A stretch of 35,114 bases of DNA from Candidatus Cloacimonadota bacterium (GTDB taxonomy: Bacteria > Cloacimonadota > Cloacimonadia > Cloacimonadales > TCS61), in assembly GCA_021157525.1 (NCBI GenBank), contig JAGGWK010000030.1:1-35114 (forward strand), read 5' to 3'. The position numbers were made by a program, and so were the translations under genes. Below the pieces are notes generated by a model, which saw only the letters and a list, made by a program, of their open reading frames with translations, was not told the DNA's origin and ran no database searches. Within the stretch, counting starts at the first letter, position 1; each line of letters opens with the position of its first letter. This document shows, piece by piece, positions 14,737-35,087 of the stretch.

Positions 14737-14812
14737 TGGTGGGCAATACTGGACTCGAACCAGTGACTTCTACGATGTGAACGTAGCGCTCTACCGACTG
14801 AGCTAATCACCC
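14737..14812 (-). tRNA. tRNA-Val (anticodon CAC)
   Basis: The minus strand folds as a full cloverleaf of 76 nt including encoded CCA (14739-14737). Acceptor GGGTGAT pairs with ATTGCCC (two G-U pairs). The D arm is GCTC...GAGC. The anticodon arm is CTACG-TTCACAT-CGTAG with CAC read from 14779-14777. The T arm is ACTGG-TTCGAGT-CCAGT. CAC reads GUG, valine. It lies between ruvB and the secreted protein gene, same strand. Confidence 0.96.
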
Positions 14813-16007: not shown

Positions 16008-16079
16008 AAAATAATAGACCATCGATGGGTGAAAGCGGTTGACATCCAGACTACTCTCGAAAAAGCTCCTTACCAAATA

Positions 16080-16200
16080 GTAACAGGGGTGCCTGAAAAG
16101 GCTGAGATCAGACCCTTTGAACCTGATACGGGTAATGCCGACGCAGGGAGTTCACCACTCTCTTCAATCACGCATTGCCTCCCCTTGAAAAATCGGAGGT
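16080..16200 (+). promoter_or_regulatory. TPP riboswitch with a probable Shine-Dalgarno-sequestering platform
   Basis: The aptamer (16080-16155) has the THI-box signatures GGGGTGCC, GGCTGAGATCA, ACCCTTTGAACCTGAT, GGGTAATGCC and GCAGGGAG. P1 can form between GTAAC (16080-16084) and GTTCAC (16150-16155). Downstream, CCTCC (16178-16182) is complementary to the Shine-Dalgarno GGAGG (16195-16199) of thi4. The same segment, as CTCCC (16179-16183), can instead pair with GGGAG (16146-16150) of the aptamer's 3' edge. So ligand binding should free CCTCC to hide the ribosome site, lowering translation of thi4-thiE-thiC. The aptamer call is secure; the switch is inferred from base pairing. Confidence 0.95.
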
Positions 16201-33780: not shown

Positions 33781-34752
33781 TTATCGATTCCCGATTTTTT
33801 CTTCACCCCTCAGCCAATCCACAAACAGGGCGATGCCCTCATCAAAACTCGTTTGGGGATTGTAACCCAGTATTTTTTTGCTCTTGCTCACGTCGGCAAA
33901 GGTCTGTTCCACATCGCCGGGCTGCATGGGCAATTGGTTCTTTCTGGCTTTTTTACCCAGATGTTTTTCGATGGTGGCAATCATGGTTTTCAGATCGATG
34001 GTACGTGATTCACCCAGATTAAAGATATCGAAGCGATTTCCGGAGCAGGTGTATCGGATGGCTTTGTTTATACCATCCAGGATGTCTGTGATGTAGGTGT
34101 AATCCCGTTTTGTAGTGCCGTCACCAAACACGTCGATCACTTCTTCATTCACTATTTTGCGTGAGAATTTGTGTATCGCCAGGTCGGGACGTTGCCGTGG
34201 GCCAAAAACGGTGAAGAAACGCAAACAGGATATGGACATCCCGAAAAGATGATGGTAGGTGTGGCACAAAAGCTCGCCTGCTTTCTTGGTTGCCGCATAG
34301 GGTGAAATGGGTAAATCCACAGAATCCGATTCGCTGAATGGCACTTTTTTGTTGTTACCATACACCGATGAAGACGAGGCAAAAACCACGTTTTTCACAT
34401 CATTGTGCCGACAAGCATCCAGCAGATTCACCGTCCCGTTGATGTTTACCGACGTGTACAGCTGTGGATCTTTGATAGATGGCCGCACGCCAGCCATGGC
34501 CGCCAGATGCACCAGGCAATCGATTTTGTGCTTGGCAAAAAGTTGGTTCATGGCTTCTACATCCCGGATGTCTGCTCTGATGAGCGTGAAATCAGGATTA
34601 GCCAGACTGGGCGCGATATTTTGCTCTTTGATAGCAGGATCGTAAAAATCGCAAAAGTTATCCAGTCCGATAACGGTGTGGCCATTGGCCAGAAGTGATT
34701 CCGTGAGATGGGAACCGATAAAACCGGCAGCGCCGGTGATTAATACTGTCAT
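33781..34752 (-). CDS. UDP-glucuronate 4-epimerase (GAE family)
   Basis: A 323-residue extended SDR. NAD motif GAAGFIG (7-13), the UDP-sugar-specific DNFCDFYDPAIKEQN, AAMAGVRPSIKDP, FASSSSVYG and catalytic YAATKK (Tyr152, Lys156), followed by FTVFGPRQRPD and FGDGTTKRDYTYITDI. These fit GAE enzymes that turn UDP-glucuronate into UDP-galacturonate; UDP-glucose 4-epimerase is less likely because of the MAGVRPSI block. AAGGAG lies 5 nt before ATG. Operon with ugd. Confidence 0.92.
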   Translation of the reverse strand: MTVLITGAAGFIGSHLTESLLANGHTVIGLDNFCDFYDPAIKEQNIAPSLANPDFTLIRADIRDVEAMNQLFAKHKIDCLVHLAAMAGVRPSIKDPQLYTSVNINGTVNLLDACRHNDVKNVVFASSSSVYGNNKKVPFSESDSVDLPISPYAATKKAGELLCHTYHHLFGMSISCLRFFTVFGPRQRPDLAIHKFSRKIVNEEVIDVFGDGTTKRDYTYITDILDGINKAIRYTCSGNRFDIFNLGESRTIDLKTMIATIEKHLGKKARKNQLPMQPGDVEQTFADVSKSKKILGYNPQTSFDEGIALFVDWLRGEEKIGNR

Positions 34753-34797
34753 GTTTTCTCCTTAGAAAATATAAAATCGTCTTCCTGAGGCTTTCTC

Positions 34798-34966
34798 TCA
34801 GAGAGACGTGAAAATTCTCCGTCATTCTGAGGAATCTTGCACGTTGCTCTACAAACGAAGAATACGGAGATTGAATATAAACCGTCACTCTTCCTTTAAA
34901 TTTATGCGAACGTTGAGCTCTGCTCAAGGGGAGTAGAATTTCTCTGTAAGATACGTCAGAGAGACG
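34798..34966. repeat. Intergenic dispersed-repeat region (copy 2 and direct repeats)
   Basis: TCAGAGAGACG occurs at 34798-34808 and 34956-34966. TGCGAACGTTGAGC...GCTCAAGGG (from 34905) repeats the element at 23820, with TTGAGC/GCTCAA as a stem. A CGTCATTCTGAGGA-type segment (around 34822) is a motif common in environmental FCB genomes. The region has no coding potential. Confidence 0.6.
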
Positions 34967-34992
34967 ATCATTTCCGGGGCTTGACTCACTGA

Positions 34993-35087
34993 AAAAACCC
35001 CCTTTTATTCCCCCTTGGAAAGGGGGACCGATCCATGCTCCCCTTGCAAGGGGAGAAAGATTTGCGTAGCAAATCAGAGGGGTTTTT
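34993..35087. repeat. Three-hairpin, cloverleaf-like palindromic element
   Basis: Outer arms AAAAACCCC (34993-35001) and GGGGTTTTT (35079-35087) enclose three hairpins: CCCCCTT/AAGGGGG (35010-35016/35020-35026), the perfect palindrome CTCCCCTTGCAAGGGGAG (35038-35055), and GATTTGC-GTA-GCAAATC (35059-35075). All three are self-contained. The outer stem and T run could also act as a terminator for a transcript from the left. Confidence 0.8.

Follow-up and report, generated by a model that had tools for sequence, protein, structure and literature searches.

The element at positions 34993-35087 of the window, by which the whole 35,114-nucleotide stretch of Candidatus Cloacimonadota DNA analysed here is meant, is in all likelihood a dispersed repeat of the DNA itself, made of two class II intrastrand-triplex motifs set back to back on opposite strands, and this judgement, drawn from sequence, covers both its anatomy and the reading at the level of DNA. 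Each half-unit comprises a pyrimidine arm, its Watson-Crick purine arm and then a third strand mirroring the purine arm, with triads in which G lies on G and either A or T lies on A. Wherever a single strand is exposed, on the lagging strand, in a transcription bubble or during repair, the half-unit might fold back twice into a triplex, a step for and against which the chances appear balanced.

Anatomy of the element

The proposed parts are as follows.

34993-35087, no strand: whole element, an inverted pair of intrastrand-triplex half-units with the third strands outermost (pattern matches, repeated in the genome)
34996-35027, minus strand: half-unit 1, in the order Y-R-third strand, TCCCCCTT-3 nt-AAGGGGGA-5 nt-AGGGGGTT (8/8 triads)
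34996-35003, minus strand: third (reverse-Hoogsteen) strand of half-unit 1 (mirror analysis and pattern match)
35009-35016, minus strand: purine arm (R) of half-unit 1 (stem and pattern match)
35020-35027, minus strand: pyrimidine arm (Y) of half-unit 1 (stem and pattern match)
35028-35037, no strand: spacer separating the half-units (read from the sequence)
35038-35084, plus strand: half-unit 2, CTCCCCTT-2 nt-AAGGGGAG-21-nt linker-GAGGGGTT (8/8 triads)
35038-35045, plus strand: pyrimidine arm (Y) of half-unit 2 (stem and pattern match)
35048-35055, plus strand: purine arm (R) of half-unit 2 (stem and pattern match)
35059-35075, plus strand: hairpin cap in the linker from R to the third strand, identical with hairpin 3 of the earlier note and a variable palindrome in relatives
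35077-35084, plus strand: third strand of half-unit 2, a mirror of its own R arm with T opposite A twice

Both halves have the features of class II, namely stems of 6-15 nt, complementary arms and a mirror third strand, and the pattern of neither half-unit was matched in 100 shuffles. Relative to the 1-6-nt loops of the ITxF search, half-unit 1 lies inside the range (3 and 5 nt) and half-unit 2 outside it, owing to its 21-nt hairpin linker.

The element adjoins the contig end, 27 bases away, within the gap upstream of an epimerase-like ORF (33781-34752, minus strand, named from its translation), and the tRNA scan placed no tRNA over it. The remainder of the gap (34753-34990) holds further repeated palindromic pieces, one of the CGTCATTCTGAGG type and TCAGAGAGACG twice, and pieces of both kinds recur beside other copies of the element. 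Elsewhere in the window, a TPP riboswitch was found at 16075-16166 (71.8 bits), followed by ORFs that read as thiamine genes by translation, and a tRNA-Val (CAC) at 14737-14812 on the minus strand.

The earlier note had described a cloverleaf, with an outer stem enclosing three hairpins, and the stems exist as it placed them: the outer stem pairs 34993-35001 with 35079-35087 over 9 bp, hairpin 1 (35009-35027) has 8 bp and a 3-nt loop, hairpin 2 (35038-35055) is a perfect 18-nt palindrome, and hairpin 3 (35059-35075) has 7 bp and a 3-nt loop. Its view that this order exceeds chance also holds, the plus-strand RNA fold reaching -44.4 kcal/mol (z -4.2), which none of 200 dinucleotide shuffles matched. 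The DNA fold is strong too (z -5.0, 0/200 shuffles as good), and its minimum-energy structure differs from the cloverleaf by pairing hairpin 1 across to hairpin 2. No cloverleaf pair had changed on both sides among the nine near-full copies of the same genome. The cloverleaf was accordingly rejected as a unit; in each half it is instead the third strand that covaries with the purine arm. Compared across relatives, the element resolves into two independent halves, in each of which another stretch rich in purines comes after the pyrimidine arm and its complement. Since the third strands both terminate in GGGGTT and face in opposite directions, their ends are complementary and give the outer stem, which stops where half-unit 2 keeps an A for its own triad, with C 35002 opposite A 35078.

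Mirror third strands and the linker rule

Third strands were sought within 32 nt on one side of 127 distinct pyrimidine-arm hairpins, from loci that form a non-random set, chosen because they resemble the element or carry a transposase. A perfect mirror, with T allowed opposite A, followed 110 of the 127 hairpins, against less than 1% with shuffled flanks. By stem, perfect mirrors accompanied 50/52 AAGGGGGA, 33/42 AAGGGGAG and 27/33 other hairpins (shuffled flanks: 0.7, 0.2 and 0.9%, respectively), leaving 2, 9 and 6 hairpins lacking a perfect third strand. A mirror in which T may stand opposite A is the third-strand rule of the antiparallel purine-motif triplex, and T in this place, we infer, suits that motif but would not suit a pyrimidine-motif triplex of the other strand.

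When a parallel copy was looked for in place of the mirror, it occurred at none of the 42 AAGGGGAG hairpins and at 11 of the 33 other stems; 49 of the 52 AAGGGGGA hairpins are uninformative here, their sequence fitting both, and half-unit 1 by itself cannot separate mirror from parallel because its G-runs are symmetric. Third strands of the wrong stem gave unequal results, AAGGGGAG fitting 0/52 AAGGGGGA hairpins and AAGGGGGA remaining perfect on 13/42 and 11/33 wrong hairpins, and exchanging third strands among the other stems produced a fit in 123 of 1008 combinations. Stem and third strand vary together, as in AAGAGAGGGA/AGGGTGAGTT, AGGAGAAGG/GGATGAGGT and AAGGGGAGGG/GGGAGGGGTT; the 16 stem strings with a perfect mirror amount to eight kinds when grouped by eye, none of them a length variant of another.

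With the linker left free, the half-unit 2 pattern was matched 134 times, in 23 of the 124 phylum genomes, all 23 belonging to the window's family, while over the same 124 genomes the backward pattern gave none and a pattern with the Watson-Crick complement replacing the mirror gave two. Among the 128 units listed from these 134 matches, the linker measured 3 or 5 nt in 48 and 12-30 nt in 80, lengths of 6-11 nt being absent, and it began with A in 120 and ended with A in 119. A perfect stem of at least 5 bp was present in 42 of the 65 distinct long linkers (shuffled mean 2.3, maximum 7) and a stem of at least 3 bp in 63. Likewise, the perfect stems of 24 long arms summed to 125, compared with a mean of 66.7 and a maximum of 81 over 2000 shuffles, in a set that omits 4-6-nt linkers, one arm that is a longer form of another in the list, and stretches between halves that the pattern had caught.

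The position thus appears to need a tight turn or a hairpin, its letters being free. Between the purine arm and the third strand, the DNA would turn over 3 or 5 nt, or over any hairpin able to bring both ends together, a proposal we put at about an even chance. That hairpin 3 varies freely and yet is nearly always a hairpin would follow, because any hairpin can hold the ends of the turn together. No other finding hints as strongly as this linker rule that the fold of three strands may itself be what is kept.

Dispersal, neighbouring genes and rival readings

The earlier note had included a palindromic repeat of the REP/MITE sort among its readings, and as a dispersed palindromic repeat the element is borne out, both by its repeat count and by its order beyond chance. 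It is not a single copy: blastn returned 22 matches in the 2.23-Mb genome, nine of them near full length and 13 partial, and the count is probably a lower bound, given that a contig end is no more than 300 bases away from 9 of the 22. Several full copies have common flanks that hold further palindromes, and, judged from these flanks, longer mosaics are also duplicated, so that part of the local copy number is block duplication. The element has inverted ends, and its flanks are too diverged for a target-site duplication to be legible. Exact half-unit 2 occurs only once in this genome, and its hairpin, with up to two mismatches, at six places versus two for a backward control. Insertion of another repeat was considered as the source of hairpin 3 and is not supported in this genome, where its letters occur only inside copies of the element (11 places with up to two mismatches, all within full or partial copies). 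In seven partial copies (L012, L013, L016, L017, L018, L020, L021), the 5' half is joined to a CCTGGCAGG..CCTGCCAGG hairpin at approximately one point, and several of these junctions lie near an apparent gene 3' end with a C-terminal tail of the KMLLLK type (by eye).

A covariance model built from the nine copies found matches in 23 of the 124 phylum genomes, the window's own included, and 17 outward-facing pairs of 74-130 bp were found. With one genome per species, the exact pattern of the 5' half matched 12 stretches in records of Cloacimonadota, Stahlbacteria and Armatimonadetes. Plasmid records held one match of the same layout, between nifK and nifV on a Pseudanabaena nif plasmid, and phage records held none. 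Two loci (L054 and L070) carry the same element with identical 20-base flanks in genomes of two genera (g3 and g18), which reflects either transfer or mis-binning. At three others (L053, L056 and L058), a long insert occupies the loop of hairpin 1, the inserts of L053 and L058 being alike.

An alanine-racemase-like fusion gene (L165-L184 and L196-L200, named from translation) also carries half-units in frame at a single site, either alone or as tandem copies, in some of the genomes. The set comprised 20 of the 31 genomes with a match together with G071, fetched by its place; among these 21 genomes, seven have a recognisable half-unit (some mismatched), one has a degenerate half-unit (G069) and 13 have none, G063 among the latter having a longer unrelated stretch at the site. 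Tandem half-units are present in G071 and G072, and an extra insert lies in the linker of the half-unit in G076. Within one genus, G099 and G100 are longer at this site by 30-33 nt than G092, G093, G096 and G097, and no stop was reported within the frames at the site. On the gene tree, at least two half-unit changes are forced by well-supported branches, the minimum being five, and the half-unit label lacks clear clustering (69 and 84 of 500 shuffles as low), with the bootstrap unsettled. Single half-units appear, from these comparisons, to have been gained or lost independently. Palindromes tolerated in frame inside genes are known from the Rickettsia palindromic elements, which are longer and are not known to form triplexes.

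The arrangement of neighbouring genes could speak for a structured RNA between co-directional genes, a three-hairpin or cloverleaf form acting in the transcript like an attenuator or whalefall-1, a reading that we nevertheless consider improbable. In relatives (23 loci), all 16 elements with both neighbours seen sit between co-directional ORFs, and 14 of the 16 read in the direction of the genes; a stricter search gave 12 of 13, tandem copies not being independent. For these counts, ORFs of at least 90 aa were called crudely and relatedness was ignored. Of the 23 loci of relatives and the nine own copies, seven and four, respectively, lacked a neighbour on one side and were left aside, and L062, L063, L065, L070 and L071 were not among the loci used. 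Co-directional pairs are, however, the common background, accounting for 106 of the 124 neighbouring ORF pairs when more loci of this kind were taken in, and of the five own-genome copies with both neighbours two are flanked by convergent and two by divergent ORFs, the fifth lying between co-directional ORFs with the element opposed. The persistence of hairpin 3 as a hairpin while its letters change, and the sub-threshold match of whalefall-1 to the window element, would also suit an RNA. Against it stand the mirror third strand, which RNA base pairing leaves unexplained, the lack of two-sided covariation in the cloverleaf among own copies, and single half-units inside a coding gene; the structured RNA of the earlier note is further disfavoured by the Rfam search, in which no family reached its gathering score on the element, the matches below it being only weak. 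Holder et al. (2015, PMC4666352) also state that RNA is unable to form purine-motif triplexes. A bidirectional intrinsic terminator, recalling the terminator complex also raised in the earlier note, is less credible still. G-rich stems followed by T-runs at both ends of the element would speak for it, but the sole terminator call in the gap (34919-34937) falls outside the element, within which no G+C-rich hairpin directly before a T-run was called, convergent ORFs surround the element at 0/16 relatives' loci and 2/5 own-genome copies, and a study to which Holder et al. (PMC4666352) refer saw no activity of PIT elements as terminators.

Spread by a transposase is the more serious rival to the triplex reading, although still unlikely: the element would be a non-autonomous REPIN or MITE, mobilised by a tyrosine transposase of the Y1 (HUH) type or by a different transposase with a preference for the hairpins, and its triplex potential would be incidental. 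As an account of spread alone, it could hold alongside the preferred reading. Dispersal, the palindromes, the inversion of the halves, the gain or loss of half-units at one coding site and the presence of Y1_Tnp genes in 98 of the 124 phylum genomes all agree with it. Against it, the CCCC-T/A-GGGG hairpin was found in 2 of 56 Y1 stretches scanned (L027 and L152), in contrast to 91 in 150 kb of element loci; the scan covered part of the Y1 matches, among them the three own genes, the 30 best-scoring stretches of relatives and 20 with longer Y1 proteins. In L027 the hairpin belongs to the copy already known, on a 10-kb contig and at its far end, leaving that in L152, approximately 0.26 kb from the Y1 match, as one possible exception. 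Palindromes of other kinds border all three own Y1 genes, as well as several of the nine relatives' genes with borders listed, gene borders having been found for 9 of the 20 longer-Y1 stretches. G079, a genome 75% complete, has eight model matches and no Y1_Tnp match, and mirror covariation is not expected if triplex potential is incidental.

The TnpA-REP partner that the earlier note had proposed looking for did not emerge, the three own Y1_Tnp genes having other palindromes at their borders (by eye) and none being flanked by the element. These genes (L027 1-870, L028 1000-1830 and L026 1080-1930) each have their own kind of palindrome, again by eye. A REP moved by a RAYT was rejected, with the element hairpin near 1 of 50 relatives' Y1 stretches (L152) and 0 of 3 own. 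Among the matches listed, the element and Y1_Tnp share one contig (G100:C21), where they lie approximately 24 kb apart by eye. No parent transposase of a MITE was found for the element among the Y1 genes examined, and no tyrosine transposase is clearly linked to it among them. For the intrastrand-triplex repeat preferred here, the folded single strand might itself be copied or inserted, through fork stalling with template switching or by a single-strand enzyme; we hold this to be somewhat doubtful, give the two routes equal weight, and regard the route of spread as the least sure step. The host would tolerate the element mainly between genes.

Relation to known repeats and RNA families

Searches of the literature with sequence strings of the element returned no paper, and in another search, on the phylum and on repeats, none of the titles listed (10 of 54,067) concerned the phylum, which does not establish absence from print. 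Short, dispersed extragenic palindromes, often in inverted pairs, are also seen in the GTAG- and CGTC-tagged REPs and the RAYT/TIRYT borders (Di Nocera et al., 2013, PMC3733652). Unlike tagged REPs, the element carries neither GTAG nor CGTC at the foot of a hairpin, is not clearly linked to any tyrosine transposase, and has a third strand; GTAG occurs in it only at the loop of hairpin 3.

Whalefall-1 (RF01762), filed as a noncoding RNA and found only in whale-fall sequences (Weinberg et al., 2010, PMC2864571), resembles the element in its UCUCUCC/GGAGAGA hairpin, a second hairpin and a conserved 3' AGGGUGAGG. This likeness is judged from the model consensus. All matches here fall below the 37-bit gathering score: the window scores 16.2 bits, the best match in the phylum 25.3, and 0/124 genomes exceed the gathering score. 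Read as a third strand along the purine arm, the tail AGGGUGAGG agrees in six of seven triads by our own count, and the four phylum matches at E ≤ 0.01 (L223, L224, L225 and L226) are all triplex half-units by eye, one with an imperfect stem. The whalefall-1 family may be a DNA repeat and not an RNA, which suggests that at least one Rfam family merits re-examination.

More broadly, and tentatively, hairpin-capped intrastrand triplexes might be a class of selfish DNA repeat that occurs widely and is copied in folded, single-stranded form, in which the fold and not the letters is selected and of which whalefall-1 would be a misfiled member. If this were true, natural sequences would record triplex formation in cells. 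Covariation of the mirror type, seen in several kinds of stem and combined with the linker rule, is evolutionary evidence for a kept three-strand fold. It makes in-cell folding of bacterial intrastrand-triplex motifs testable, and the linker rule offers a simple way to find repeats that the published search, with its loops of 1-6 nt, would miss.

Among the closest known systems are the BoxC, PIT or TM elements (Holder et al., 2015, PMC4666352). In that study, the E. coli motif is reported to form a triplex by NMR in vitro and a duplex when the complement is present, with no footprint protection or stable triplex in cells; an earlier study cited in that text found no promoter or terminator activity, and unusual variability surrounds the sites of the motif (PMC4666352). 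Its TMECO consensus, CCCTCNCCC-N3-6-GGGNGAGGG-N3-GGGNGAGGG (PMC4666352), has no match in the window, whose element has other stem letters. Both have the class II order of Y, R and third strand, both accept T opposite A in the triads, and both are dispersed. Both also form inverted pairs whose two members are of unlike type: E. coli has five such pairs, always A + B (PMC4666352), and the pairs here join CCCCC and CTCCCC types. The differences concern orientation, linker and location, for the pairs here face outward, unlike four of the five E. coli pairs, which face inward by our own reading of the Table 1 coordinates; the linker is of 3 or 5 nt or a 12-30-nt hairpin, as opposed to the 1-6-nt loops of the published search; and in-frame coding copies exist, while all copies of the E. 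coli motif are reported to lie between genes (PMC4666352). By its sequence features, the element is a member of the BoxC/PIT/TM class with three variant traits, a pair that faces outward, a turn predicted to be capped by a hairpin, and copies within coding sequence.
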